Below, one piece after another: positions 36,189-58,633 of a stretch of DNA of 64,000 nt; position 1 is the stretch's first letter; the number at the start of each line of letters is the position of its first letter. The stretch is taken from positions 62,001 to 126,000 of the forward strand of contig NZ_JACJPI010000045.1 in NCBI RefSeq assembly GCF_014695975.1, written 5' to 3'. The DNA comes from Leptolyngbya sp. FACHB-321 (GTDB taxonomy: Bacteria > Cyanobacteriota > Cyanobacteriia > Leptolyngbyales > Leptolyngbyaceae). The notes under the pieces are model-generated. The model worked only from the letters and a program-made list of their open reading frames with translations. It did not search any database and had not been told where the DNA came from. The translations under genes and the position numbers were made by a program.

Positions 36189-38591
36189 CTACTGTTGCCA
36201 AAGCCGAATCGTACCGTCCCAACTGCTGCTGGCGATCGTGCGGTTGTTAGTAGAAAGGGCGATCGCAGAAACCACTGATGTATGACCCGTCAGCGTGGCG
36301 AGTGCTTTGCCTGTGCGGGGTTGCCAGAGTTTGAGGGTATCGCTGCCAGTACACAAAAGCTTGCCATCAGGGCTGACAGTAAGTGCTGTGACGCGACCAG
36401 ATTCGGGCTGAAGGGTGCGCTTTTCGCGCTGGGTGCGGGTGCTCCACAGTTTAACGGTGCCATCCCAACTGCCGCTAGCGAGGGTTTTACCATCCGGCTC
36501 AAAGGTCAGCGCTGCAACGGTTTGGGAATGTCCTTTCAGCATACGCAAGGCGCGCCCTGTCGCTGGCTGCTCCAGGTTTAGCTCCCAGAGTGCGATCGTG
36601 GCATCGTTGCTACCACTGGCGAGCCACAGCCCATCAGGACTAAAGGCGAGTGCTTCGATACGTCCGGCTTGTCCAGACAGGCTAACAAGTTCCTGGTTCG
36701 TTTCCAAGTCCCATAGTTTAATTGGATCGTAGAGGCTACCGCTAGCGAGCATCCGTCCGTCTGAGCTAAGGGCAAGGCTGAGAATTGTATCGGTGTGGAG
36801 GGCGATCGTACTAATACGTTGTCCTGTCTGCAAATCCCACAGTCGAATGCTTTTGTCGGCACTCCCGCTGATCAGCAGCTTGCCGTCGGGACTAATGTCC
36901 AGACAGGAGACAACATCCAGATGCCCTGTCAGAGTGCGGAGCAGTTGCCCCGTTTGCACATCCCAGAGCTTGATAGTGGTGCCGCTGCTGCTTGCCAAAA
37001 TTGGCTCTGTCGGACTTAGCGCGATCGCGTAGACCTTACCTGGATTGAGCCATTGGTGCACGCACTGCCAGGACGCTGCTTTTGGCTGGCGATGTGACAC
37101 TGAGTTTTTTGCACCGTTGGCACTACTGGGCCGCTGAATATTCTGTGGGGCATTTTGTTGAGGTAATGGCTGGGGTTTTTGTTGAGGTAATGGCTGGAGC
37201 AATGGCTGGGGTTTTTGCTGGGGTTTTTGCTGGGGCAACGACGGTGCGATCGCGTGAGCTATTGCCTGCACAGCAGCAGAGGCAGCAGAGCGAAACGTCA
37301 TAGGTATAGGGGCAGGGGGAGCAAGCCCAGCAATCGGTGCCGCCAGCGACACAGCAAGCAATGGGGCAGCCACTGGAGACAAATGTTCCTCAGGTCGTGC
37401 TCCATCCAGATCGCGCAGTACCTCTGTTGCAGACTGGTAGCGCTGATTGACGCCAGGCTCCAGAAGACGATCAAGAACGTGCCCTAGCGCTTCACTGACG
37501 GGGACGGTCAGATATTTGCGCCAGATCCAGGTATGGTCGCTGCTATCAAACAGATCGAAGGGCGATCGCTGGGTCAGTAAATGGATGCACGTCACGCCTA
37601 GGCTAAACAAATCGCTGGCAAACACGGCTTTGCCTCGACTTTGCTCCGGCGCAAGATATTCAGGACTGCCGATCGTCGTTCCGGTTTTGTTCCATGTGGT
37701 GCCTGTCGCTGCTTTTGCCGCCCCAAAGTCTACCAGTGCCAACCGTCTTTCGATCGCCTCCCCATGAGGCTCACACTGCCGCCGCAGTTCGTACAGCAAG
37801 CGACTGGTGTTAGCGATGAGAGCCTGCCGTTGGGCAAGGGACAACTCGGTATAGCTAGCAAACTGGGTGGTAAGCTGCTGCCAGCGTTTATAGACGGCGA
37901 TCGACAACGCTTTGGGCGGTTGAGCAAAACTGGCGCTCAGCCGATCGCTAAACCGACGATCGCTGACAAAATCATGGCATCCTTGTGCCGCCTCTAGCGC
38001 CAGTGCATGCTGTAAGGCAGCCCAGTCAGGTTGATTAGATGCTTGTTCGGACGATTGCCCTGCTCCCCCGCCTGACATCTGAATCACGTTAGAAGGCTTA
38101 AGATCACGATGAATAACGCTGTGAGCATGGATAAACTCCAGCACAGGCAGCAACCCTACCAACACCGATCGCACCTGTGCCTCTGTAAACGCACCCTCAT
38201 CGTGCAGCAGTTCTGCCAGATTTTTGCCATTCACAAACTCCTGCACCAGGTATTGCTGCCGCTCTTGCCTAAAGTACGCCAGCAGCGTCGGAATTTGCGG
38301 ATGATTGCCTAACTCCTCCAGCCGCATTGCCTCCCGCTCAAAGAGTTGAGCCGCTTTTTTCAAATGCTGCGCGTCCTGATTTACAGGCAGAAATTGCTTG
38401 ATCACACAGCGCGGTTTGGATGGTTTGTCTTCATCGATCGCCAGAAACGTTCTGCCAAAGCCACCCTGACCGATCGGCTTCGCAGGTCGATAGCGATCCT
38501 TCAACAGTAGCCTTGCGCCACAGTAATGGCAAAGCTCTGCACTGTTTCGATTTTGAGGCTTTTGACAATCGGGATTGAGGCAGTAGCTCAT
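36189..38591 (-). CDS. 4-Cys-type Ser/Thr protein kinase with WD40 repeats
   Basis: An 800-residue protein starting MSYCLNPDCQKPQN at 38591. Order: a four-Cys zinc knuckle (Cys 4, 9, 21, 24), a Hanks-type kinase domain (about 35-445) with GQGGFG (41-46), ATP Lys 65, HRDLKPSN (161-168), DFGAAK (288-293) and the APE equivalent YLAPEQSRG, a Pro/Gln linker (about 495-545), then seven WD40 repeats (560-800), each with SPDGK...SGS...IRLWD. A segment of about 110 residues separates the HRD and DFG motifs, far longer than the normal few residues. It is probably a soluble scaffolded kinase; substrates are unknown. Confidence 0.92.
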   Translation of the reverse strand: MSYCLNPDCQKPQNRNSAELCHYCGARLLLKDRYRPAKPIGQGGFGRTFLAIDEDKPSKPRCVIKQFLPVNQDAQHLKKAAQLFEREAMRLEELGNHPQIPTLLAYFRQERQQYLVQEFVNGKNLAELLHDEGAFTEAQVRSVLVGLLPVLEFIHAHSVIHRDLKPSNVIQMSGGGAGQSSEQASNQPDWAALQHALALEAAQGCHDFVSDRRFSDRLSASFAQPPKALSIAVYKRWQQLTTQFASYTELSLAQRQALIANTSRLLYELRRQCEPHGEAIERRLALVDFGAAKAATGTTWNKTGTTIGSPEYLAPEQSRGKAVFASDLFSLGVTCIHLLTQRSPFDLFDSSDHTWIWRKYLTVPVSEALGHVLDRLLEPGVNQRYQSATEVLRDLDGARPEEHLSPVAAPLLAVSLAAPIAGLAPPAPIPMTFRSAASAAVQAIAHAIAPSLPQQKPQQKPQPLLQPLPQQKPQPLPQQNAPQNIQRPSSANGAKNSVSHRQPKAASWQCVHQWLNPGKVYAIALSPTEPILASSSGTTIKLWDVQTGQLLRTLTGHLDVVSCLDISPDGKLLISGSADKSIRLWDLQTGQRISTIALHTDTILSLALSSDGRMLASGSLYDPIKLWDLETNQELVSLSGQAGRIEALAFSPDGLWLASGSNDATIALWELNLEQPATGRALRMLKGHSQTVAALTFEPDGKTLASGSWDGTVKLWSTRTQREKRTLQPESGRVTALTVSPDGKLLCTGSDTLKLWQPRTGKALATLTGHTSVVSAIALSTNNRTIASSSWDGTIRLWQQ

Positions 38592-38846
38592 AGCGAAAGA
38601 GCAACCAGCAACTAGATGCTTATAATAAGCGGTTCGTGAGGGTTGTGAGGGGAGAGGTGTGAGGAAGTAAGGGCGGCAGAGAGAATGGGGCGGCAGGCGT
38701 GGCAAGGAGAATGAGGCGGCAGGGGAAGCAAGGGGAATGGCGCAGTAGGAGTTGTTGGTTTTTGGCTTTTAGAAGAAAGCTGACTGCTGACTGCTAAAGC
38801 AACTCAAAACTTTATCTCTTATCCTTCATCCCTCATCCTTTATCCT
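38592..38846. repeat. Repeat-rich spacer before the kinase gene
   Basis: It contains imperfect repeats of GGCGGCAGG...AAGGGGAATG (about 38660-38750) and a degenerate ATCCTTC heptamer tract (38815-38850). No gene. Confidence 0.55.
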
Positions 38847-44941: not shown

Positions 44942-47900
44942 ATGTTTTCAGATAAACCCGATCGAGAGCTGGTTGAAGAGGATGTCTTTATTTTTCCGGC
45001 CTCGTTTGCTCAACAGCGCTTGTGGTTTATCGAACAACTGCTTCCTGGAGATGCTCTTTACGTTATTCCGCTGGTTTTCCGGCTTACAGGTTCGCTCCAG
45101 CGATCGCTCCTCCATCAGAGTTTGCAGGCGATCGTGCAGCGTCATGAAAGCCTCCGCACTACCTTTGATGTCGTGGATGGACAACTGATGCAGGCGATCG
45201 CGCCTGAGTTGTCAGTGCCGCTCAACTTCACAGATTTACGAGCCTTGCCCGCTAGCACCCGCGAAGATAGTGCGCTAGCTCAAATCTGGCAGGCAATTCA
45301 ACAGCCGTTTCATTTAAACCAGGGACCACTGTTTCGCGTCCAGTTGTGGCAATTGCAGGATACGGAACATCTGTTGCTGCTGGCACTGCATCACATTGTT
45401 TTTGATGAGTGGTCAAGCGGTGTGTTGATCCGCGAGTTGGGCGCACTCTACGCCGCGTTGGTGGAAAACAAACCGATCGCGTTGCCAGACTTACCCATTC
45501 AATATGCTGATTTTGCCCACTGGCAGCGGGAGTGGTTGCAAGGAGAGGTGCTAAACGCCCAATTACGCTACTGGAAGCAGCAGTTAGCAGATGTCCCAGT
45601 GCTTAGTTTACCTGGTGCGGCAGCTCGTCCGCTCCTGCATTCAGTGGTGCAGGGGCATCAGGGTGCCAGCCAACTGTTGGAATTACCGCAGCCGTTATTG
45701 GATGAGTTAGAGGCACTAAGCCAGCAGGCAGGCGTAACGTTGTTTATGACTCTGCTGGCAGCCTTTCAGACGTTGCTACATCGCTATACTGGGCAGACTG
45801 ATCTGGCGATCGGCTCTCCCATTGCTAATCGTCATCGCAGCGAGTTGGAAGGGTTGATTGGGTTCTTGGTCAATAGCCTGGTGTTGCGAACCAATCTGGC
45901 AGGTGATCCCACCTTTCGCGAGTTACTAGACCGGGTGCGGGATGTCACTTTGGCAGCGTACGCTCATCAGGATTTACCGTTTGAAAAGCTGGTAGAAGAA
46001 CTGCAACCCGTACGTAGCCTGGGTCAAAATCCGCTCTTTCAAGTGGTCTTTGCGCTGCAAAATACACCGATGGAGCAACTGACGTTACCGGGCTTAATCC
46101 TTAGCCCGGTGGAGTTGGAGACGAAGACTTCACGCTTTGACCTGGAACTCTATGTTTGGAAAAGTGGGGACAACTTCAGAAATTTGTGGGGTAAGGGTTG
46201 GCAGCAAGCGGATGGGTTGCGCGGTGTCATCGTTTACAACACGGCTTTGTTTGATTCGACCACGATCGCAGCACTACGACAGCACTTTCAGACGTTATTG
46301 GAGGGGATCGTCGCAAAGCCAGAGACTCCTCTCTCGGCATTGCCATTGCTAACGGTTGCAGAACAGCGATCGTTGTTACAGCAGTGGCAAGGCAAGCAAT
46401 CCAGTTATCCCGCTCATGTTTGTATCCACCAACTGTTTGAAGCACAGGTTAAGGAACGACCCACCGCGATCGCTATCCAATTTAATGATCAATCGTTCAC
46501 CTATCAGGCATTGAATCAAGGCAGTAATCAACTGGCGCGGTATTTGCAACGATTAGGGGTTGGCGCTATGCCCGTTGGCATCTGTCTGGAACAAGGGGTG
46601 GAAGCGATCGCGGCAATGTTGGCAATTCTCAAAGTCGGTGGTGCTTACGTGCCGCTTGATCCCACCTATCCCTCAGAGCGGCTGCACTTCATGCTGGAGG
46701 ATGCGGGTATTACAGTGGTGTTGACGCAGGCAGACTGGGCAGAGGCACTGCGAACTGACCACACAACGATCGTTTGTTTGGAACAAGCCTGGGGCACGAT
46801 CGCTAAGGAGTCGGATGAAAACCTGTCGGCTCCCTGCACTGCCGATCAACTTGCCTACGTCATCTATACCTCTGGCTCAACTGGAACGCCCAAAGGTGTG
46901 ATGGTGCCCCATCGGGCAGTGAATCGGCTGGTGTGTGACACCAACTATGTGCAGATCGAACCGGGCGCTCGGGTGGCACAAGTGGCAAACCTTGCCTTTG
47001 ATGCCGCCACCTTTGAAGTTTGGGGTGCTTTATTGAACGGTGCCCAACTGATTGGCATAGAGCGAGAAACGACACTGACACCCACTGCGTTTGTTGCTGC
47101 TCTGGAACACCAGCGCATCAGCATTCTGTTTTTGACAACCGCGTTATTTAATCAAACGGTAAGCCAGATTCCTACTGCCTTTCGATCGCTCAAATACCTG
47201 CTGTTTGGCGGTGAAATGGTGAATGTGGATTGCGCGCGATCAGTGGTGCAACAGGGCAAACCCCAGCATCTCATCCATGTCTATGGTCCCACTGAAAACA
47301 CGACCTTTTCCACCTGGTACGAGGTGCAAAACGTGCCAGAGAACGCCACGACCATTCCCATTGGTCAAGCCATCGCTCAGACCCAGGTGTATTTATTAGA
47401 TGCTAGGCAAAATCCAGTCCCAGCAGGCGTAGGCGGTGAACTTTATTTAGGTGGCGATGGGCTGTCACGAGGCTACTTGAAGCGTCCAGAGCTGACAGCA
47501 GAACGGTTTATTGACAATCCCTTTAAGGAGTGGGGCATGGGGAATGGGGCAAAGCACTCAACTCCTGGCTCCCAACTCCCAACTCTTTACAAAACGGGCG
47601 ATCGCGCCCTGTATCGTTCTGATGGCGCGCTTGAGTTTTTAGGACGCACAGACCATCAAATCAAACTGCGCGGTTTTCGGGTGGAACTGGGCGAGATTGA
47701 AACGGCGATCGTGCAACATCCAGCCGTGCGAACCGCCCTAGTGGTGCTGCGAGAGATGGACAACGCGCCTACAGAGACGCTGCGCGAACGACAGTTGGTT
47801 GCCTATGTTGTAGCCGACGCGGCGGTTGTACCAACAGAGCGGGAGCTGCGATCGTTTCTCAAAACAAAACTACCGCTTTATATGCTGCCTGCAGCCGTTG

Positions 47901-48298
47901 TAGTGCTAGACGCATTGCCACTTACTGCCAATGGCAAGGTGAATCAAAAGGCATTGCCACCACCTTACGTGGCTGTTGCGATGGAAGCCAGCCCAATCAT
48001 TGCACCCACCACCTCCCTAGAGGCATCCCTGGTCGAAGTCTGGACGCAGCTTTTGGGACGGACAGTGGGCATCCACGACAATTTCTTTGAGTTGGGTGGG
48101 CATTCCCTCCTGGCAACTCAGCTTGTCTCGCGTCTGCGCGATCGCTTGCAAGTGGAATTGCCGCTACGCAGTGTGTTTGAAGCGTCCACAATCGCAGCAC
48201 TGGCAGAGAAGATTGAAGCGCTGGAGGCAGCGCAAACAGTCTCCAGCAGGGCACCTCGTCAGCCAGCAGCACAACGACGTGAGGAAGTAGAACTATGA
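44942..48298 (+). CDS. Nonribosomal peptide synthetase, module 1 (C-A-T)
   Basis: An 1118-residue protein. A condensation domain (about 18-455) has SFAQQRLWF and HHIVFDEWS (His 150-151, Asp 155; the usual next Gly is Glu). An adenylation domain (about 490-985) has YVIYTSGSTGTPKG, AFDAATFEVW, VYGPTEN, LYKTGDRA and NGKVNQKALP (Lys 999). A carrier domain has the phosphopantetheine Ser 1055 in NFFELGGHSLLATQ. The specificity residues read D-A-F-F-L-G-V-T-F-K, which suggests a branched aliphatic residue such as Ile or Val. AAGGAG lies about 15 bases before the ATG. A repeat-like insert (about 860-880) sits before the TGD motif. A C domain at the start may acylate the first residue or be inactive. 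Confidence 0.93.
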   Translation: MFSDKPDRELVEEDVFIFPASFAQQRLWFIEQLLPGDALYVIPLVFRLTGSLQRSLLHQSLQAIVQRHESLRTTFDVVDGQLMQAIAPELSVPLNFTDLRALPASTREDSALAQIWQAIQQPFHLNQGPLFRVQLWQLQDTEHLLLLALHHIVFDEWSSGVLIRELGALYAALVENKPIALPDLPIQYADFAHWQREWLQGEVLNAQLRYWKQQLADVPVLSLPGAAARPLLHSVVQGHQGASQLLELPQPLLDELEALSQQAGVTLFMTLLAAFQTLLHRYTGQTDLAIGSPIANRHRSELEGLIGFLVNSLVLRTNLAGDPTFRELLDRVRDVTLAAYAHQDLPFEKLVEELQPVRSLGQNPLFQVVFALQNTPMEQLTLPGLILSPVELETKTSRFDLELYVWKSGDNFRNLWGKGWQQADGLRGVIVYNTALFDSTTIAALRQHFQTLLEGIVAKPETPLSALPLLTVAEQRSLLQQWQGKQSSYPAHVCIHQLFEAQVKERPTAIAIQFNDQSFTYQALNQGSNQLARYLQRLGVGAMPVGICLEQGVEAIAAMLAILKVGGAYVPLDPTYPSERLHFMLEDAGITVVLTQADWAEALRTDHTTIVCLEQAWGTIAKESDENLSAPCTADQLAYVIYTSGSTGTPKGVMVPHRAVNRLVCDTNYVQIEPGARVAQVANLAFDAATFEVWGALLNGAQLIGIERETTLTPTAFVAALEHQRISILFLTTALFNQTVSQIPTAFRSLKYLLFGGEMVNVDCARSVVQQGKPQHLIHVYGPTENTTFSTWYEVQNVPENATTIPIGQAIAQTQVYLLDARQNPVPAGVGGELYLGGDGLSRGYLKRPELTAERFIDNPFKEWGMGNGAKHSTPGSQLPTLYKTGDRALYRSDGALEFLGRTDHQIKLRGFRVELGEIETAIVQHPAVRTALVVLREMDNAPTETLRERQLVAYVVADAAVVPTERELRSFLKTKLPLYMLPAAVVVLDALPLTANGKVNQKALPPPYVAVAMEASPIIAPTTSLEASLVEVWTQLLGRTVGIHDNFFELGGHSLLATQLVSRLRDRLQVELPLRSVFEASTIAALAEKIEALEAAQTVSSRAPRQPAAQRREEVEL
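47525..47592 (+). repeat. Repeat-like insertion in the module 1 adenylation domain
   Basis: GTGGGGCATGGGGAATGGGG followed by CTCCCAACTCCCAACTC units, read in frame as a Gly/Asn- then Ser/Pro/Leu-rich loop between RFIDNPF and LYKTGDRA, where most synthetases have a shorter loop. Confidence 0.65.
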
Positions 48299-51200
48299 CG
48301 CAGAAAACGATCGCTGAATTTGTTTCCCAGCTAAACAGCCTGGATGTAGAGGTTTTTGTGGAGGGCGATCGCGATTCATCCTTAGAGGTGATGCGTTTGC
48401 GCTGTACTGCTCCTGAAGGAACGCTAACCACTGCATTGCGCCAGGAATTAGCCGATCGTAAAGCCGAACTTGTTTCGTACCTGTCTCAGGAGAAGACAGA
48501 GGGCGGAGGGCAGAAGGTAGAGGGCAGAGGGCAGAGGGCAGAGGGCAAGGACGTACTATTTTCTCCAACCTCAACTCCTGCTGCTCGACTCCCGACTCGT
48601 ACGCAAAGCCCCCTTTCCTTTGCTCAACAGCGCTTGTGGTTTCTCTATCAACTCACTCCAGGCAACCCTTTCTACAATGTGCCTGCTGCTATCCGGTTAA
48701 CAGGGACGCTGGATCAAACAGCGCTAGAGCGATCGTTTCAGGTGGTGGTGCGTCGTCATGCTGCCCTTCGCACTACTTTTACAACCCATGAGGGACAGCC
48801 CGTTCAAGTCGTTGAACCCGATGTCACGGTTGAGTTGGCGGTTGTGAATCTGCAGGCAGTGGCGGTGAGCGATCGCGAACGCATTAGCCAACAGCTAGCC
48901 ACGGCTGAAGCCCAACATCCGTTTAACCTCACCACCGATCCGCTGTTGCGAGTGACGTTGCTGCAATTTGACTCTACTGAAGCAGTGCTGTTGCTGACGA
49001 TGCATCATATCGTTGCCGATGGCTGGTCGTTGGGCGTGTTGATCAAAGAATTGGCGTGTTGCTACACCGCCTTTGTAGAAGGGCAATCGCCCAGCTTGCC
49101 ACCTTTACCCATCCAATACACAGATTTTGCTGACTGGCAGCACCGTTGGTTGCAGGGAGAGGTTTTAGAGAAACAACTGGCTTACTGGCGAAAGCAATTA
49201 CAGGCGTTGCCAGTACTACAATTGCCCAGCGATCGTCCCCGTCCTGCCGTTCAGAGCTACCGGGGCGCAACCTATCCGCTGCAAATTTCCGCTACGCTGA
49301 CACAAGCCTTAGAGACACTTAGCCAACAGTCGGGCGCATCGCTCTTTATGACCCTGCTGGCAGCTTTTCAAACGCTGCTATATCGCTATACCGGGCAGAC
49401 TGATATTGCGATCGGCTGTCCCATTGCTAACCGCCATCGAAGTGAGTTGGAAGGGCTGATTGGCTTTTTTGTAAACAGTTTGGTGCTGCGATCGAATTTA
49501 TCTGGTCAGCCCACCTTCCGTACTTTATTGGAGCGGGTGCGCAATGTTGCCCTAGAAGCTTACAAATATCAGGACTTGCCGTTTGAGAAGCTGGTCGAAG
49601 CGTTAGATCCCGATCGCGATCTCAGTCGCAATCCCTTATTCCAGGTTGCCTTTGCGCTACAAAATGCTCCCATGCAGCCCTTAGAATTGCCAGGTTTAAC
49701 GCTGACACCTGCGCCTCTAGAGTCAGGCAGCACTCGGTTTGATCTGGAAGTTCACCTATGGGAACCTGCTCACGGGCTGCGAAGCTTGTGGCAATCGCAG
49801 GAAGGTTTGAGCGGCTTTATCTCCTACAGCACTGATTTGTTCGATCGCGACAGAATTGGTCGCCTCATTGGTCATTTTCAAACGTTGCTGGAAGGCATTG
49901 TTGCCAACCCTGATGCTTCTCTAGCAGACTTGCCGCTGCTCACACCCGTAGAACAGCAGCTGCTTGTTGGATGGAACCGCTCCCCCCTAGCCCTTCTTGA
50001 AAAAGGGAGGGATCAGTCTGAAGTCCCCGTTTTTAAGGAAGATTTAGGGGGGGCACGCTGCTTCCATCACCTTTTTGAGGCGCAGGTGGCTTTGGCTCCA
50101 GAGGCGATCGCCCTTGTGTCAGAACAGGGATCGCTCACTTACCAAGAACTTAACCAGCAAGCGGATCAGTTGGCGCAAACCTTGCACGAGATGGGCACTC
50201 AACCCGGTGATCTGGTGGGCTTATGTGTCGATCGCTCCGCCGACATGGTGATTGGCATTCTCGGCATTCTCAAAGCTGGAGGAGCCTATGTGCCGCTCGA
50301 CCCCAACTACCCAAGCGATCGACTTCACTTTATGTTGACCGATACGCAGGTGCCGCTTTTGCTGACGCAATCCTGGTTGCTCGAACAGCTACCGCGATCG
50401 CAAGCAACGGTCCTTTGTCTCGATCAACCCTTGCCCCCGGGAAAACAGGCTAGGAGAGAGGGTTGCACAGTTACGCCTGATCAGCTTGCCTATGTAATCT
50501 ATACATCTGGTTCGACGGGCACACCAAAAGGCGTTCTCCTCTCTCATCATGGGTTGTGCAATGTCGTTGAAGCACAGCAGCAAGTCTTTCATCTTTCCCG
50601 CAGCAGTCGCATTCTGCAATTTAGTTCGCTGAGTTTTGATGCCTCCATTTTTGAGCTTGCCCTGGCATTTGGTTCGGGTGGCACCTTATATCTTCCACCC
50701 AAGTCTGCCCAGCTGCCGGGCATGGCATTGGTACAATTTCTAAACGACAACGCGATTACCCATGCCCTACTGACTCCAGCAGTGCTAGCTGTGCTGCCGC
50801 CTGCGGTACTACCTGCCCTTCAGGTATTGATTACAGGTGGAGAAGCCTGCTCCAGTCAGGTGGTCGATCGCTGGGCAGTGGGGCGGCACTTCTTCAACGC
50901 GTATGGACCGACAGAAGTTACCATCTGGGCAACCGTTGCTGAACTCCATCCAGGCGACAACCCATCGACGATCGGTCGCCCCATTCTCAATACCCAGGTG
51001 TATATTCTGGATGCCAACTTAAATCCTGTGCCCGCAGGCATTCCAGGCGAGCTATACATCGGCGGTGCCGGACTCGCTCGTGGCTATCTCAATCGTCCAG
51101 AGCTAACAGCAGAGCGGTTTGTGCCTAATCCATTTCAGGAGAAGGGAGACGCAACCCCAACTTCCTTGCTTTATAAAACGGGCGATCGTGCTTTCTTTCG

Positions 51201-54150
51201 CACTGACGGCACCATTGAGTTTCTCGGTCGGGTCGATTACCAAATTAAAATCCGAGGGTTTCGGGTTGAATTAGGCGAAATTGAAGCAACACTGCAACGC
51301 CATCCCGCGATTCAGGAAGCAATCGTCATCCCTTCCGGCGAACCATCAAACGAGATGCGCCTCATCACTTACTTCAGCCTCGATCGCCAACATTTTCAGC
51401 AAACCATTCTGCAATCGCTGCAAACTCAACATATTCAATACTGGCAAACCCTTTACAACCAAACCTACCAGGCTCCACAGCCTACAGCCATTACCCCACA
51501 ACATCCAGTTGAGCGCTCACGCCGAAACTCTACCCCCCCATTCAACATCACCGGTTGGAACAGCAGCTACACCGGAGAGCCCATTCCCCTTGAGCAAATG
51601 CAAGAGTGGGTGAGCGATCGCGTCCAGCAAATGCTTGCCCTTAAACCCAAGCGAATCTTGGAAATCGGTTGTGGTACTGGCTTGTTACTCTTTCAACTTG
51701 CACCGCATTGCCGAAAATATGTGGGAACGGACTTTTCAAAGGATGCGTTGGAGTCAATTCAAACTCAATTGAACCCCCTCAATCTTCCTCAAGTCGAACT
51801 ACTGCACCGCATGGCAACTGATTTTGAGGGTATTGATGTAGCCTCGTTTGATGTGGTGCTTTTGAATTCGATCGTGCAATATTTTCCAAGCCAGGATTAT
51901 CTAATGCAGGTGTTGGAGAAAGCCATGCAAGCAGTGGCACCCGGAGGTGTTTTGTTTCTGGGCGATGTGCGAAGCCTGCCGTTATTGACGGCGTTTCATA
52001 CCTGGGTGCAATTTTGTCAGGCAGATGGAGGTATGGAGCGCACCCAATTACAGCAACAAGTGGAACGATCGCGGTTTGAAGAACCAGAACTAGCGATCGA
52101 TCCAGCGTTTTTTCATGCCTTGCGCGATCGCTTCCCCCAAATTCAACAGGTGCAAATTCGTCTCTCGCGTGGTCGCAGCCAAAATGAAATGACGCAGTTT
52201 CGCTATAACGTTTTGCTGCACCTAGAACCGCTACGATCCCCAACCGCTCAAGCATTGCAGGGATCGTCGGCTCACGAGCAATCGCGCTCCATCCAACAAC
52301 ATGATTGGCAACGTCAGCCTATTACAGTGGAAGCGATGCAAACACAACTACGTGAGACTGAACCAGCGCTAGTCACGATCGCGAATGTTGCAAACAGCCG
52401 TGTGCAGGCTGCTGTTCAAGCGGCAAACTGGTTACGCAACAACGACACGCCAAAAACGGTTGGGCGGATGCGAGAAACGTTACAGGATGCTGTTGCCTTG
52501 GCGATCGATCCTGAAGATTGGTGGGCTTTAGAAACAGTGCTGCCCTACACCGTAGAAATCACCTGGTCAACGCAAACCCATACAGGTGCTTATGATGTGC
52601 TGCTGACTCGGCAGGGTGTTGATGCGACGTTTGCCGTACCCCTCTCTCAGCCATTCAGCCAAGCCGGTCAGCCTTACACGAATGATCCGCTTCAGTCGAA
52701 CTTTGCCCGTCAGCTCATTCCTGAACTCCGGCACCATCTCAAGCAAACCTTGCCAGATTACATGGTGCCGTCTGCCTTTGTGCCGTTGGAAACGCTGCCG
52801 CTTACTGTCAATGGCAAAGTAGACCGTCGTGCCCTCCCAACGCTGAGTAATGCCCTCCCCTCCGCCAGCACTGCACTTTCCGCCAGCACTACCATTGCAC
52901 CCTCAACCCAAACAGAATCAACTTTAATTGACATCTGGCAAGAACTCTTGCGGCTCAAGCAAGTGACGGTTCACGACAACTTTTTTGAACTCGGTGGGCA
53001 TTCCCTTCTGGCTACGCAAATGACCTCCCGTGTACGCGATGCTTTTGGGCTAGAGCTACCGTTGCAGAGCGTGTTTGAAACACCCACGATCGCTCAACTG
53101 GCTCCGATTCTAGAAACATTACGCGCAGCCCCTTCTGCCCCTAACGTGCCCCCGCTTGTCCGTTTGGATCGTGCGGCTCATCGTCGCTCGCGATCGCAGC
53201 AATCCAGCGTTCCGGCTCAGGCTCTCCAAGATCTGGCTGCTCAAGACCAGGCTCTTCAAGACTTCGCTCCTCAAGATCTATCCGTCCAGGCAACTCCACC
53301 ATTCAACAATCAAGTTGCCTCTGAGCAAGCGATCGCCGCTCGATCGCCGCTAGTGCCCTTAACGCTGGGTGGAAGCAAGCAACCGTTCTTCTGCGTGCAT
53401 CCCATGTTTGGAGTTGTGTTTCCCTATCTAGAACTGGCGCAGCAGCTAGGCAGCGATCGCAGTTTTTATGGGCTGCAACCGCTGGGATTGGACGGCAAAC
53501 ATGCGCCCCTAACTAAGATTGAAGCGATCGCCGCTTACTACGTTCAAGCAATGCAAACCCTTCAGCCACACGGTCCCTATTTTTTAGGCGGATGGTCATT
53601 TGGTGGGCTGGTTGCCTTCGAGATGGCGCAACAGCTCACGCAGGCAGGGCAGAAGGTGGGTCTCCTGGCAATGCTTGATACGCCTGCACCGACCAACCAC
53701 CAACCGTCGTTGGGTCAAAGCCTCAAGTTTCTTCTGGGAACGGCTCTCTGGTCTACGCTACCGTTTGTGCTGGACTATGGTGCGATCGCGGCAAATCGAT
53801 TGCGCTCCTTGACCTGGGTATCTCGCTGGCAGTGGTCTGCGCTGATCCGTCGGTTGCCTGAAGAATCCCGCTTACAGCTTTTGGATGAATCGGCGATCGC
53901 ACCCCTGCTGCGTATTGTCTATGCCAACGCTCAAGCAGCGTACCGCTATGTGCCGCAGCCTTACCCCGATCGCATCACGCTCTTTAAAGCCACTGAACAA
54001 GCCGATGTCATGGGGCAGGACTCAACGTTAGGCTGGAGCACTTTAACGACGGATGTGCAACTGCATCCGGTGCCGGGAAACCATCTCTCTTTGCTGAAAC
54101 AACCGCATGTGCAAACCCTGGCGCAGCAACTTCGACCCTATCTGGCTTAA
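48295..54150 (+). CDS. Nonribosomal peptide synthetase, module 2 (docking-C-A-NMT-T-TE)
   Basis: A 1951-residue protein. It has a TubC-type docking domain (1-65); a repeat-derived linker (66-100); a condensation domain (105-540) with HHIVADGW (His 237-238, Asp 242); and an adenylation domain (590-1020) with YVIYTSGSTGTPKG, SFDASIFELA and AYGPTEVTIW. An N-methyltransferase is set between A8 and A9 (about 1025-1430), with the SAM motif EIGCGTG at 1123-1129. The A10 segment NGKVDRRALP follows, then a carrier domain (Ser 1570 in FFELGGHS) and a thioesterase with Ser 1768 (GGWSFGG) and His 1930 (GNHLSLL). The A code reads D-A-F-L-I-G-A-I-W-K, hydrophobic but not assignable. The start overlaps the module 1 stop (ATGA). 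Confidence 0.95.
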   Translation: MTQKTIAEFVSQLNSLDVEVFVEGDRDSSLEVMRLRCTAPEGTLTTALRQELADRKAELVSYLSQEKTEGGGQKVEGRGQRAEGKDVLFSPTSTPAARLPTRTQSPLSFAQQRLWFLYQLTPGNPFYNVPAAIRLTGTLDQTALERSFQVVVRRHAALRTTFTTHEGQPVQVVEPDVTVELAVVNLQAVAVSDRERISQQLATAEAQHPFNLTTDPLLRVTLLQFDSTEAVLLLTMHHIVADGWSLGVLIKELACCYTAFVEGQSPSLPPLPIQYTDFADWQHRWLQGEVLEKQLAYWRKQLQALPVLQLPSDRPRPAVQSYRGATYPLQISATLTQALETLSQQSGASLFMTLLAAFQTLLYRYTGQTDIAIGCPIANRHRSELEGLIGFFVNSLVLRSNLSGQPTFRTLLERVRNVALEAYKYQDLPFEKLVEALDPDRDLSRNPLFQVAFALQNAPMQPLELPGLTLTPAPLESGSTRFDLEVHLWEPAHGLRSLWQSQEGLSGFISYSTDLFDRDRIGRLIGHFQTLLEGIVANPDASLADLPLLTPVEQQLLVGWNRSPLALLEKGRDQSEVPVFKEDLGGARCFHHLFEAQVALAPEAIALVSEQGSLTYQELNQQADQLAQTLHEMGTQPGDLVGLCVDRSADMVIGILGILKAGGAYVPLDPNYPSDRLHFMLTDTQVPLLLTQSWLLEQLPRSQATVLCLDQPLPPGKQARREGCTVTPDQLAYVIYTSGSTGTPKGVLLSHHGLCNVVEAQQQVFHLSRSSRILQFSSLSFDASIFELALAFGSGGTLYLPPKSAQLPGMALVQFLNDNAITHALLTPAVLAVLPPAVLPALQVLITGGEACSSQVVDRWAVGRHFFNAYGPTEVTIWATVAELHPGDNPSTIGRPILNTQVYILDANLNPVPAGIPGELYIGGAGLARGYLNRPELTAERFVPNPFQEKGDATPTSLLYKTGDRAFFRTDGTIEFLGRVDYQIKIRGFRVELGEIEATLQRHPAIQEAIVIPSGEPSNEMRLITYFSLDRQHFQQTILQSLQTQHIQYWQTLYNQTYQAPQPTAITPQHPVERSRRNSTPPFNITGWNSSYTGEPIPLEQMQEWVSDRVQQMLALKPKRILEIGCGTGLLLFQLAPHCRKYVGTDFSKDALESIQTQLNPLNLPQVELLHRMATDFEGIDVASFDVVLLNSIVQYFPSQDYLMQVLEKAMQAVAPGGVLFLGDVRSLPLLTAFHTWVQFCQADGGMERTQLQQQVERSRFEEPELAIDPAFFHALRDRFPQIQQVQIRLSRGRSQNEMTQFRYNVLLHLEPLRSPTAQALQGSSAHEQSRSIQQHDWQRQPITVEAMQTQLRETEPALVTIANVANSRVQAAVQAANWLRNNDTPKTVGRMRETLQDAVALAIDPEDWWALETVLPYTVEITWSTQTHTGAYDVLLTRQGVDATFAVPLSQPFSQAGQPYTNDPLQSNFARQLIPELRHHLKQTLPDYMVPSAFVPLETLPLTVNGKVDRRALPTLSNALPSASTALSASTTIAPSTQTESTLIDIWQELLRLKQVTVHDNFFELGGHSLLATQMTSRVRDAFGLELPLQSVFETPTIAQLAPILETLRAAPSAPNVPPLVRLDRAAHRRSRSQQSSVPAQALQDLAAQDQALQDFAPQDLSVQATPPFNNQVASEQAIAARSPLVPLTLGGSKQPFFCVHPMFGVVFPYLELAQQLGSDRSFYGLQPLGLDGKHAPLTKIEAIAAYYVQAMQTLQPHGPYFLGGWSFGGLVAFEMAQQLTQAGQKVGLLAMLDTPAPTNHQPSLGQSLKFLLGTALWSTLPFVLDYGAIAANRLRSLTWVSRWQWSALIRRLPEESRLQLLDESAIAPLLRIVYANAQAAYRYVPQPYPDRITLFKATEQADVMGQDSTLGWSTLTTDVQLHPVPGNHLSLLKQPHVQTLAQQLRPYLA
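48495..48547 (+). repeat. Heptamer repeat in the docking-C linker
   Basis: GAGGGCA/GAGGGCG-type heptamers, about seven copies, read in frame as a Gly/Glu/Gln/Arg-rich linker after the docking domain. Confidence 0.85.
49982..50053 (+). repeat. Palindromic dispersed repeat inserted between C and A domains of module 2
   Basis: About 70 bases of the cyanobacterial CCCCCTAG...AAAAAGGGAGGGAT...CCCCGTTTTTAAGGA...TTTAGGGGGGG type. It is read through in frame as a loop between LLVGWNRS and CFHHLFEAQV, two blocks that are normally about 8-12 residues apart. Confidence 0.8.
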
Positions 54151-54244: not shown

Positions 54245-55360
54245 ATGTTCATGCCCTTCGGTTTTCTGTTGCAGTGGTTAACCAATTTATTTACCGTTGC
54301 TATTCTTGGCGGTGGCGCTTACGTTCTTTACGAATGGTATGAAGGCGACCTGGTGAGCGATCGCTGGTTATATCTAGGGGTAGGGTTGCTGCTGTGGTCA
54401 TTTTTGGGCTTTCTGCCCATTTTGCTGCTGCGTCGTCCCGGCAGCGATGAACCGAGAGTAATCCGTAGCAACCGCACTGAACGTTTACCCCGACCCGATG
54501 GCAGCGAAATTCACGTCGAAATCTATGGACCCGATCGTGCTCCTACCCTTATCCTGACGCATGGCTGGGGACCTGATAGCACTGTCTGGTATTACCCTAA
54601 GCAGCAACTCACCGAGCACTTTCGCATTATCGTTTGGGATCTACCTGGTTTAGGTAAGTCCAAAAAACCAAAAAATCGAGATTTCTCACTAGAAAAATTT
54701 GCTTGTGACCTGGAAGCAGTCTTAACGCTGGCAGGCGATCAACCCGTCATTTTGTTGGGGCATAGCATCGGCGCAATGATCCTGCTGACCTTCTGCCGCT
54801 TGTTTCCACAACATCTAGGGCAACGGGTGGCTGGCTTGATTTTGGTCGATGGCACATATATCAATCCGCTGAAAACTACCATTCTCAGCAAGCTGTTGCT
54901 GACATTGCAGAAGCCATTGCTAGAACCATTGCTTTACCTGTCGATCGCGATCGCTCCCTTACTCTGGCTCATCAGTTGGCTCAGCTATTTCAATGGCACG
55001 ACGCTGTTAACGACAGAAATTTCTGGCTTCACGGGCAGAGAAACACGGGGGCAGCTTAATTTTTCCAGTTTGATTGGCATTAAGGCATCACCGGGAATAC
55101 TTGCGCGAGGCGTCTTGGCAATGTTCAAGTTCGACGAAACAGCAACATTACCAAAAATCTCCGTTCCTACGCTGGTGGTCGTTGGTAAGTCTGACATTGC
55201 AACCCGACCCTTTGCTAGCAAACGCATCAGTACAGACATACCGCAAGCAGAACTAACAGTCTTGGCTCCGGGAGGGCACATGGTATTAATGGAACGCAAC
55301 CAACAATTTGCCGAAGTAGTCCAAACCTTTAGTAAGACCTGCTTGAGTTTAAAGAGTTGA
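54245..55360 (+). CDS. Membrane-anchored alpha/beta hydrolase next to the NRPS
   Basis: A 371-residue protein. Two N-terminal transmembrane helices (LFTVAILGGGAYVLYEW; YLGVGLLLWSFLGFLPILLL) are followed by an alpha/beta hydrolase domain (from about 75) with the oxyanion motif ILTHGWGPDS, the nucleophile elbow LLGHSIGAM, Asp in VVGKSDIA and His in APGGHMVLM. A hydrophobic cap (PLLEPLLYLSIAIAPLLWLI) suits a lipid-like or membrane substrate. It follows the NRPS by 94 bases on the same strand and could edit, release or modify the peptide, or be an unrelated lipase. Confidence 0.8.
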   Translation: MFMPFGFLLQWLTNLFTVAILGGGAYVLYEWYEGDLVSDRWLYLGVGLLLWSFLGFLPILLLRRPGSDEPRVIRSNRTERLPRPDGSEIHVEIYGPDRAPTLILTHGWGPDSTVWYYPKQQLTEHFRIIVWDLPGLGKSKKPKNRDFSLEKFACDLEAVLTLAGDQPVILLGHSIGAMILLTFCRLFPQHLGQRVAGLILVDGTYINPLKTTILSKLLLTLQKPLLEPLLYLSIAIAPLLWLISWLSYFNGTTLLTTEISGFTGRETRGQLNFSSLIGIKASPGILARGVLAMFKFDETATLPKISVPTLVVVGKSDIATRPFASKRISTDIPQAELTVLAPGGHMVLMERNQQFAEVVQTFSKTCLSLKS

Positions 55361-57016: not shown

Positions 57017-58294
57017 TCATTTTGGATCGACGATCGCGCCCATAAACAACACCGTCCCAGTTTTGTTATCGCGGATGGCACAGAAGAAAGGGCGATCGAC
57101 GTTCATTTGAAACGGTTGACTTGTGGGCATGGAGGTTGTGACAATTCCGATCGACGTCGCTGCTGCCGCTTCGGTGCCTTCTTCGTTTACCTCGACAAAG
57201 GTTTTGTGCTTTACCTGGTCAATTTTGGTGGACGCAGTACTCAGCTCATCAAAGGTAGCTTTATTGGCATCAAAGGCGATCGACATTCCCAACGTAGACA
57301 GCGCTTTTTTCAATGCCACATCATATTCCAGCTTGAAGCGGGGTACTTGTACTGAGCCTGGTTGCGTGCGAAAGCGACCCATCCATTGCTGCCAGTTCTC
57401 AGCCGTCAGGATTTTGGTAAAGCGAGACAGGTTGGATGCTTTCTTGGGCAGAAAGAGATACATACTGACGCGCTCGTTGCCGTAGGGGAGGCTTACTGCC
57501 TGAAACTGGTTCGTTTCGTAATACTTGTAGCTGCCAGTCTGCGCCATCGTGGGGTGACTTTTCGAGCGACCGTTCGACAGGTAAAAAGGCTTGTTAGCAG
57601 TTTCACTCTTGTCAAACGCTTTTGTCCAGTTGCCTTTGAAGTAGATGGCGTTAACCAAAAACATGACGTCATCGGGCTTCAGACCGTCCACAATTTGACT
57701 GATCTTGCCACGAGTGTTTTCTTTCACCCAGTTGTTAATCGTTGCTGTAGACTCGGGGGCTGCAAAGTCTAGCTCTGTAATCTGTGCGCCGTAAAAGTCT
57801 CGATTGCGTTGGATAAAAGCTGGCTTGAAGGGGGTGCCCTGCCGTGCCCAGAGTGAGTTGGCGATCGTAAGCTGCACGCCACTATCAGGGCTTTCTAGCA
57901 TTTTCTTTAGGTCAGCGTTGGCTCGGTTAAGCTGGCTCAAGCTCATGCCCTGAAGCTCCAGGGTTTTTGCCATTTGCTGTTGGGTCGCTCCGCTGGCACC
58001 GTTGTAGGTCATGGCAAGGGCGATCGCCACGCTCGACGGCGACACAAACACATTTTTCTTGTCGTCCTGCTTCAGCACCTCTGAAAACAGCTTGAAGCCA
58101 AACTTGGTATTTGCACTGACGAGCTTCGGATCAACGGCTGAGGGCTTTTGCATCGCTACCGGCTGCGGTGGTTGGGTCGGCTGCGGGGCAGTTGCCGAAT
58201 TTACATTCGTCCCGTGCAAACACCCCATCAAGCCCAGCAGTAGGAAACTGCCGATCGCCACTACCCCTGTCCGCCGTAACTTACGATGACCCAT
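57017..58294 (-). CDS. Lipoprotein serpin (inhibitory type)
   Basis: A 425-residue protein. The signal peptide has a good lipobox (LLLGLMGC), followed by a Thr/Pro/Gln linker and a full serpin domain (from about 62): NVFVSPSSVAIALAMTYNGA, FLVNAIYFKGNWTKAFD, VSLPYGNERVSMYLFLP, and the C-terminal VDRPFFCAIRDNKTGTVLFM. The hinge EEGTEAAAATS is that of an inhibitory serpin, with the scissile bond probably in the GIVTTSMPT loop. ATG 58294 is chosen for its AGGAG site 7 bases upstream. It is likely to be outer-membrane or cell-surface anchored and to trap a serine or cysteine protease. Confidence 0.93.
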   Translation of the reverse strand: MGHRKLRRTGVVAIGSFLLLGLMGCLHGTNVNSATAPQPTQPPQPVAMQKPSAVDPKLVSANTKFGFKLFSEVLKQDDKKNVFVSPSSVAIALAMTYNGASGATQQQMAKTLELQGMSLSQLNRANADLKKMLESPDSGVQLTIANSLWARQGTPFKPAFIQRNRDFYGAQITELDFAAPESTATINNWVKENTRGKISQIVDGLKPDDVMFLVNAIYFKGNWTKAFDKSETANKPFYLSNGRSKSHPTMAQTGSYKYYETNQFQAVSLPYGNERVSMYLFLPKKASNLSRFTKILTAENWQQWMGRFRTQPGSVQVPRFKLEYDVALKKALSTLGMSIAFDANKATFDELSTASTKIDQVKHKTFVEVNEEGTEAAAATSIGIVTTSMPTSQPFQMNVDRPFFCAIRDNKTGTVLFMGAIVDPK

Positions 58295-58633
58295 CTTTCC
58301 ACTCCTGACCAAACGCTGCATGAAGCTCTTTACCTCTCAACAATGCCACGTTCGGGATGGAAGGGCGCGATCGTTGCAGATTCGGTAACTGCAACAAAAA
58401 AGTTGACAGCAAAATGCGCTTGGTTTCCTTTATAAGCATCTCCAAGTAGCTTGTCAAAGCTAACTATGAATTAAGTGGCTCATAATTATTTGTAAGATGC
58501 ATTGAGCGAAGTCGAAACGCCCTCAGTTCTGCGTGTCGGTGGGTTGAGCGCAGTCGAAACCCGATCTCTCAGTAGTGCTTAATTTAGCCCTCCTACTTAT
58601 TTTTTACAGATTGGGTGTCGAGAATCTGTACAG
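58295..58633. other. Spacer with a paired 17-base repeat
   Basis: It contains two direct copies of TTGAGCGxAGTCGAAAC at 58502-58518 and 58544-58560. This motif is a common dispersed element in cyanobacteria. Otherwise it is the promoter region of the serpin gene and the end of the next gene; no further structure was seen. Confidence 0.55.
58302..58306 (-). promoter_or_regulatory. Ribosome binding site deciding the serpin start
   Basis: AGGAG on the minus strand, 7 bases before ATG 58294; the frame is open for nine further codons to ATG 58321, which has no such site. Confidence 0.7.

Follow-up and report, generated by a model that had tools for sequence, protein, structure and literature searches.

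The cyanobacterial nonribosomal peptide synthetase (NRPS) lines for microcystin, cyanopeptolin, anabaenopeptin and aeruginosin have more modules than two, or include polyketide synthase (PKS) parts. The lyngbyatoxin synthetase LtxA is one protein of layout A-MT-T-C-A-T-R (A, adenylation; MT, methyltransferase; T, carrier; C, condensation; R, reductase), with the methyltransferase in its first module and reductive release. Enniatin/beauvericin-type synthetases are fungal, take a hydroxy acid in module 1 and carry twin T domains and a terminal C domain instead of a thioesterase (TE). We analyzed 64,000 nucleotides from Leptolyngbya sp. FACHB-321 (contig NZ_JACJPI010000045.1, positions 62,001 to 126,000; hereafter the window), which carry two overlapping NRPS genes, P1 and P2. 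Judged by its genes, P1/P2 is a real, conserved two-module NRPS line. We propose, with a probability of about 0.6, that it makes a dipeptide of Ile or Val and an N-methylated hydrophobic residue, probably N-capped, that it derives from a shortened three-module line and that the adjacent alpha/beta hydrolase (abH) acts with it. This value is a compromise between the core claim of a self-standing line joining two residues with N-methylation, in which we have considerable confidence, and N-capping by the first condensation domain (C1), for which we put the odds slightly below even; a diketopiperazine alternative shares the same core. The domains, their order, their conservation, the matching linker tail and the co-occurrence of abH can be read directly from the sequences; the substrates, the docking, the capping, the way of release, the direction in which modules were lost and the part played by abH are inferred.

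The two genes comprise the following features (window coordinates):

44942-48298, + strand: P1, C-A-T protein, NRPS module 1; 1118 aa; A code DAFFLGVTFK (predicted Ile/Val); C-terminal tail RREEVEL
44993-46378, + strand: C1, first condensation domain of P1; motif HHIVFDEWS; elongation-type by phylogeny
46436-47956, + strand: A1 adenylation domain of P1, residues 499-1005
48008-48226, + strand: T1 carrier domain of P1, residues 1023-1095
48295-54150, + strand: P2, TubC_N-C-A-MT-T-TE protein, module 2 and release; 1951 aa
48310-48489, + strand: TubC_N docking domain of P2, the sole TubC_N found in the genome
48601-49965, + strand: C2 condensation domain of P2; motif HHIVADGWS
50074-51414, + strand: A2 adenylation domain of P2, main part, residues 594-1040; code DAFLIGAIWK; hydrophobic pocket
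51520-52674, + strand: N-methyltransferase of P2, inserted between A8 and A9
52900-53118, + strand: T2 carrier domain of P2, residues 1536-1608
53119-53364, + strand: T-TE linker of P2; holds PPLVRLDRAAHRRSRS, like the C-terminal tail of three-module P2 proteins
53365-54147, + strand: TE domain of P2, residues 1691-1951; nucleophile motif GWSFGG

Both frames are intact and overlap by 4 bases (48295-48298), so that the preliminary description of this DNA, which had read two overlapping genes encoding C-A-T and docking-C-A-NMT-T-TE, was exact to the base. All Pfam domains exceed the gathering score: in P1, Condensation 18-479, AMP-binding 499-846, AMP-binding_C 918-999 and PP-binding 1030-1089; in P2, TubC_N 6-65, Condensation 103-557, AMP-binding 594-932, Methyltransf_12 1122-1220, AMP-binding_C 1474-1508, PP-binding 1543-1603 and Thioesterase 1697-1943. 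As in modular type I NRPSs, C, A and T follow in order with intact catalytic motifs and a terminal TE. The NGK lysine after A9 is present in A1 and A2, T1 and T2 both read DNFFELGGHSLLATQ, the methyltransferase carries EIGCGTG and the TE carries GWSFGG; for these motifs, and for the names A8 and A9, we assume the usual meanings. The solved structure best matching the TE is 4zxh. By its position in the sequence, the methyltransferase interrupts A2 between motifs A8 and A9, and its closest solved structure is 5wmm (E 2e-49, labeled 'NRPS'), which we take to be the interrupted A domain of TioS, a backbone N-methylator. P2 thus holds an A8-A9 interrupted A domain resembling a solved one, which supports a backbone-type N-methyltransferase and agrees with the N-methylating second module proposed earlier.

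The preliminary description had suggested looking for a conserved two-module cluster, and we found the intact pair at 20 distinct loci, window included, in Oculatella, Phormidesmis, Elainella, Nodosilinea, Pantanalinema, Leptolyngbya and other genera; Oculatella LEGE 06141 and Phormidesmis priestleyi ULC007 are among its carriers. This count leaves out duplicate loci (L079, L080, L088 and L102, matched by contig and gene lengths), L100 (frame break near the TE), the broken L045/L102 and L101, and the partial loci L071, L081, L084, L090, L095, L097, L098. Among 58 related genomes, five besides the strain's own (G000) possess the intact pair (G025, G016, G026, G011 and G050), while G018 has a broken copy and that of G007 is truncated by its contig. 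A scan of genome contigs by TE alignment gave 25 loci with organism names, and a TE search of 386 genomes of the phylum added G061, whose pair is intact, and G064, whose truncated locus (L071) retains just the second part of P2 and has no P1 within 20 kb. The pair was not found in any of six other same-genus genomes searched; G003 has the three-module form described below. Broken or truncated copies were seen at L045/L102, L101 and L071, and the hydrolase neighboring L045 is likewise a remnant. Since several genera keep the pair while it is missing from further genomes of the same family, this very small yet complete NRPS line probably makes a small metabolite that is under selection.

The nearest relatives of the pair are three-module lines of other cyanobacteria, with the layout C-A-T / TubC_N-C-A-MT-T / C-A-T-TE. 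They were found in G008, G053, G351, G174, G425, G125 and G242, and also in G003 (split over two contigs), G178 (P1 cut by the examined region) and G216 (frame-broken); those of G248 and G149 show no P1 within the region examined. These lines share with the pair the P1/P2 domains, related C1, C2, MT and TE domains and the same kind of P1 tail, and the same hydrolase adjoins several of them, but their TE sits on a third C-A-T module (P3) and their P2 stops after its T domain. The P3 code is DAFT[IV]AA[VI]WK in 8/8 rows read and the P2 code is DAWFLGNVVK or DAFIIGAIWK; the docking domain of L072 did not score. We found no described product for three-module lines in the literature searched.

Three-module P2 proteins end soon after T with a tail like PALVPVSREARRMKLSS in all 12 rows read (the L149 row being a frame-broken piece), a tail similar to a T-C linker as well. 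In the two-module P2, this stretch (PPLVRLDRxAYRRKRS and variants) is found between T and TE. T and TE are separated by 46-88 residues in the two-module proteins (33 rows, 29 distinct, counting partial and broken copies) and by 15-25 residues in three-module P3 (13 rows, 12 distinct). In the C-domain tree, C1 of the three-module loci L047 (support 0.994) and L072 (0.911) takes a position immediately outside the clade of two-module C1 domains. The TE and NMT trees, both midpoint-rooted, also keep two- and three-module types apart. The C1 branching, the match between linker and tail and the short P3 linkers suggest that the pair probably descends from a three-module line that lost its third C-A-T, the TE becoming fused to P2. 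The shared stretch would then be a natural example of a one-module change and useful for engineering.

We read the A-domain codes by alignment to hand-placed anchors, the tenth letter, K, being supplied by the script rather than read per row. The A1 code is DAFFLGVTFK in all 24 two-module P1 rows (21 distinct loci). The same code belongs to the cyanopeptolin domains OciB-A5 and OciC-A7, which incorporate Ile or Val (PMC2533009), and it occurs in Ile domains of suomilide, aeruginosin and pseudospumigin (PMC13122637). This points to Ile or Val as the predicted A1 substrate. For A2, 27 of the 29 readable two-module rows (24/26 distinct) carry DAFLIGAIWK and two (L078 and L090) carry DAFLVGAIWK; the code was not readable in 4 further rows. 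The variable positions are all hydrophobic or Gly/Ala. The second residue can be predicted only as 'hydrophobic', because the A2 code matched no published code in the literature searched.

In a tree of 117 C domains (with duplicate loci and two more redundant rows removed; midpoint-rooted on a long branch), the two-module C1 domains are monophyletic (support 1.0) and sit inside the elongation-type group, separate from the low-scoring C domains at the N terminus of single-module C-A-T-TE proteins. The two C domains fused to a fatty acyl-AMP ligase (FAAL; L103 and L108) also lie within this broad group, which leaves an acyl starter compatible with the tree. The tree thus speaks neither for nor against the starter-type C domain considered in the preliminary description. 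Compared with solved structures, C1 and C2 alike scored top for Txo1/Txo2-type C domains and low for CDA-C1 (4jn3) and 7c1h, both of which we take to be starter C domains. The motif HHI[IV]FDEWS is present in 24/24 two-module rows; other cyanobacterial C domains of the set also replace the Gly of HHxxxDG (DA, DL, DR, DV, DI, DD), and within the set the DE variant is restricted to C1 of this NRPS family. Over 8 pairs, dN/dS was 0.06-0.11 for C1 (8/8 pairs), 0.05-0.10 for C2, 0.06-0.12 for the TE and 0.11-0.18 for A1. One A2 value, for the pair L089-L092, had been computed over domain borders that were too wide and was set aside. We therefore rejected the idea that C1 is a dead relic, since it is under purifying selection as C2 is.

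The pair was predicted from the outset to form a self-standing line. The strain's own genome (6.7 Mb, 91 contigs, 97% complete) contains other NRPS genes: at contig ends, an A-T-C-A-T-C-A piece runs off C62 and, on C55, the end of an A domain and a T precede C-A-T-reductase, the two being perhaps one line; C71 encodes a single C-A-T-TE protein with its own TE. Weak partial C matches occur on C36 and C80, and PKS-type proteins on C2. Docking of P1/P2 with the other NRPS genes is unlikely: the genome search yielded one TubC_N, that of P2, and the other full lines have their own loading or release parts, which is in line with the initial view. NRPS or PKS genes elsewhere that dock with the pair had been named as evidence that would contradict it, and there is no further NRPS module in the examined flanks of 22 two-module loci (the 20 intact ones, L045 and L100; upstream 4.3-44.9 kb in 7 and 0.7-2.1 kb in the other 15, downstream 0.4-10 kb). 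The only ketosynthase (KS) match in these loci is weak, in a 420-aa protein of L043 and L094.

Within the pair, P2 begins with TubC_N and P1 ends in a conserved short acidic tail, REE[VIFL][ED][LF] in 24/24 two-module rows (21 distinct loci), which would form a docking pair. Such short acidic tails bind TubC_N-type docking domains. Only 17 residues precede C1, too few for a docking domain at the start of P1. A separate observation concerns G053, where an A-MT-T protein ending REEVEF (L049, 13541-16744, - strand) stands directly before a three-module line whose P1 ends REEIEF; judging by these tails, the two proteins could compete for one docking domain.

Downstream of the pair lies one further gene:

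54245-55360, + strand: abH, alpha/beta hydrolase with two N-terminal helices, 95 bases downstream of P2

abH is the only neighbor family present in more than three of the 29 loci compared (9 loci), many of which have short flanks. In the window, L041 and L083 it follows the pair immediately; L045 keeps a remnant of it, in L085 it is 3 kb off, and it stands beside or between three-module genes in L047, L073, L074, L076 and also L148, L149 and L163 (the L076 locus). Among the 58 relatives, abH (E<=1e-60) was found in 9 of the 11 genomes that carry the NRPS family (in two- or three-module form, including broken copies; the abH copy of G018 is a remnant) and in 2 of 47 without (Fisher p 3e-7); within the strain's own family the figures are 8/9 and 2/26 (p 2e-5). 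In the 386-genome sample they are 9/14 and 2/372, the G425 and G174 copies holding a stop; removing the strain's own genome, G008 and G017 as common to both samples, with other common genomes kept in, they are 7/12 and 1/371 (p 3e-11). These statistics ignore shared ancestry, and the NRPS-positive lists were drawn by hand after the adjacency was noticed, with G113 (P3 homologue only) and the truncated G064 counted as positive. In the AlphaFold model (mean pLDDT 73.7), two helices at the N terminus precede an alpha/beta hydrolase fold closest to esterases, with a membrane phospholipase (6i8w) and ABHD6 also among the matches. S174, D317 and H345 are invariant in 16 homologues and likely form the catalytic triad; the putative enzyme is probably membrane-anchored via its N-terminal helices.

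Taken together, these data are consistent with the following scheme. A1 would load Ile or Val onto T1, and the acidic tail of P1 would pass the T1-bound residue to the TubC_N of P2. A2 would load a hydrophobic amino acid, the inserted methyltransferase would N-methylate it, C2 would join the two residues and the TE would release the product. C1 would most likely cap the first amino group with an acyl group brought as a thioester, so that the commonest product would be N-acyl-Ile/Val-N-Me-X, and the hydrolase would act on this product or its export form. At 9.2 kb for the two genes and 1.1 kb for the hydrolase, the system is small enough for expression and product read-out.

Several observations weigh against this proposal. 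No acyl donor enzyme is conserved beside the pair among the 29 loci compared, and no FAAL-type ligase was found at E<=1e-40 in G011, whose pair is intact and whose genome is 99% complete, nor in G018 (broken pair), G050 (88% complete) or G003. The A2 code and the close variants tried found no match in the literature searched. Five of the 8 dN/dS pairs come from one closely related group and are hence non-independent. Regarding the direction of module loss, the C1 domains of L047 and L072 are its only tree support: those of the three-module L048, L049 and L076 take other positions within the family, the C2 domains of L047/L072 are sister to the two-module C2 (0.852) rather than stepwise outside it, and all three trees (C, TE and NMT) have midpoint roots. 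Finally, abH is located away from the NRPS genes in G026 and G011 (as also in G008 and G053) and is missing at E<=1e-60 from the two-module G016, G050 and G061 and the truncated G064.

The strain's own genome does have a FAAL homologue, on contig C74. There, a FAAL, an amine-oxidase-like protein, a fatty acid desaturase, an acyl carrier protein and a CMAS-type methyltransferase are encoded in a row (L166, 7873-13626), which looks like a separate fatty-acyl pathway. The idea that the system always uses a fatty acid supplied by a FAAL was rejected, as 4 of 14 searched genomes with a two- or three-module line have no FAAL at E<=1e-40.

Four other explanations were considered. In the first, C1 does no donor chemistry and the free dipeptidyl thioester Ile-N-Me-X cyclises on P2 or its TE to an N-methyl diketopiperazine; its odds overlap with those of our proposal because both share the two-residue core. 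An N-alkylated second residue favors such ring closure, and the missing conserved acyl donor gene fits it too. Nevertheless, a TE domain would hardly be needed, and C1 keeps its HH...D motif in 24/24 two-module rows and is selected as strongly as C2, so that we regard this outcome as unlikely.

The second explanation is TE-driven iteration, in which dipeptide units are joined two or three times, C1 possibly taking the chain, into a cyclic N-methylated tetra- or hexapeptide. The C-A-T / C-A-MT-T layout recalls enniatin-type synthetases, and C1 is elongation-type and under selection. There is, however, no second T and no terminal C domain, and the TE is related to those of three-module lines, where iteration is not implied; we judge iteration quite unlikely. 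Its fullest form, also improbable, would make the pair a bacterial two-protein counterpart of the fungal iterative synthetases, in which C1, with its unusual HHxxxDE motif, and the fused TE would combine two or three Ile-N-Me-X units to give a small N-methylated cyclic peptide; the trait would date from the loss of the third module of a three-module line, and the hydrolase would serve release or self-protection.

It is similarly doubtful that a first partner encoded elsewhere donates to C1, which would make the pair the downstream portion of a longer line. The A-MT-T protein just upstream of the G053 three-module line could be such a partner, but its REEVEF end would suit P2 rather than P1. 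A gene may be missing from the 97% complete assembly, and further candidates might lie in the weak partial C matches (C36 and C80) or the PKS-type proteins (C2); against this, the 17 residues before C1 hold no docking domain, and no further module is seen in the 7 loci whose upstream flanks span 4.3-44.9 kb. Nor is either of the other lines donor-like, since C62/C55 starts with A-T and ends in a reductase and the C71 protein has its own TE. Finally, that C1 forms a ureido bond between two amino acids, as in the syringolin and anabaenopeptin pathways, is very remote and was rejected: the signature EHHXXHDG is not matched by C1 (HHI[IV]FDE), which has no His before D (24/24) and no Glu before HH in the 8 two- and three-module rows with this motif that were inspected.

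Other features of the genome and window lie outside this argument. In the C62/C55 line, a PilZ-like Pfam domain lies inside two A domains, where a methyltransferase insertion is usual (L018, 1-7281, - strand, residues 1579-1667; L017, 900-5714, residues 962-1048). A cytochrome P450 gene is found near this reductase-terminated line, and G016 has a line of similar layout (L107). The window also encodes a protein kinase fused to WD40 repeats, with a 4-Cys prefix domain (36189-38705, - strand), and a serpin (57017-58321, - strand; Pfam E 1e-120); serpins, a family of protease inhibitors, are uncommon in bacteria. Rfam and tRNA scans of the whole window gave no hits. We observed 2 promoter-like sites where 6.8 were expected and 10 terminator-like sites where 12.2 were expected.

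The kind of system described here is already known. P1/P2 itself is an orphan: among the matches listed in the literature searched, no paper names such a two-module cluster, its family or its shortening. With only two modules, and with no KS match in the 22 two-module loci beyond the weak one of L043 and L094, it does not belong to the microcystin, cyanopeptolin, anabaenopeptin or aeruginosin lines, as the preliminary description had held. Like LtxA and its relatives, it is a two-module cyanobacterial NRPS predicted to yield an N-methylated dipeptide; unlike LtxA, it consists of two proteins, with the methyltransferase in module 2, release by a TE and an additional C1. With the enniatin/beauvericin-type synthetases it shares the succession of C-A-T and C-A-MT-T and an extra N-terminal C domain, but it is bacterial and has a TE in place of the twin T and terminal C domains. 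As for C1 itself, a study of fuscachelin C3 describes the same HHxxxDE variant, in which the Glu lies near the amine of the Gly acceptor and lowers the acceptance of larger residues such as Leu (PMC8097023). Unlike that domain, C1 is the first domain of its line and its predicted acceptor is Ile or Val rather than Gly.
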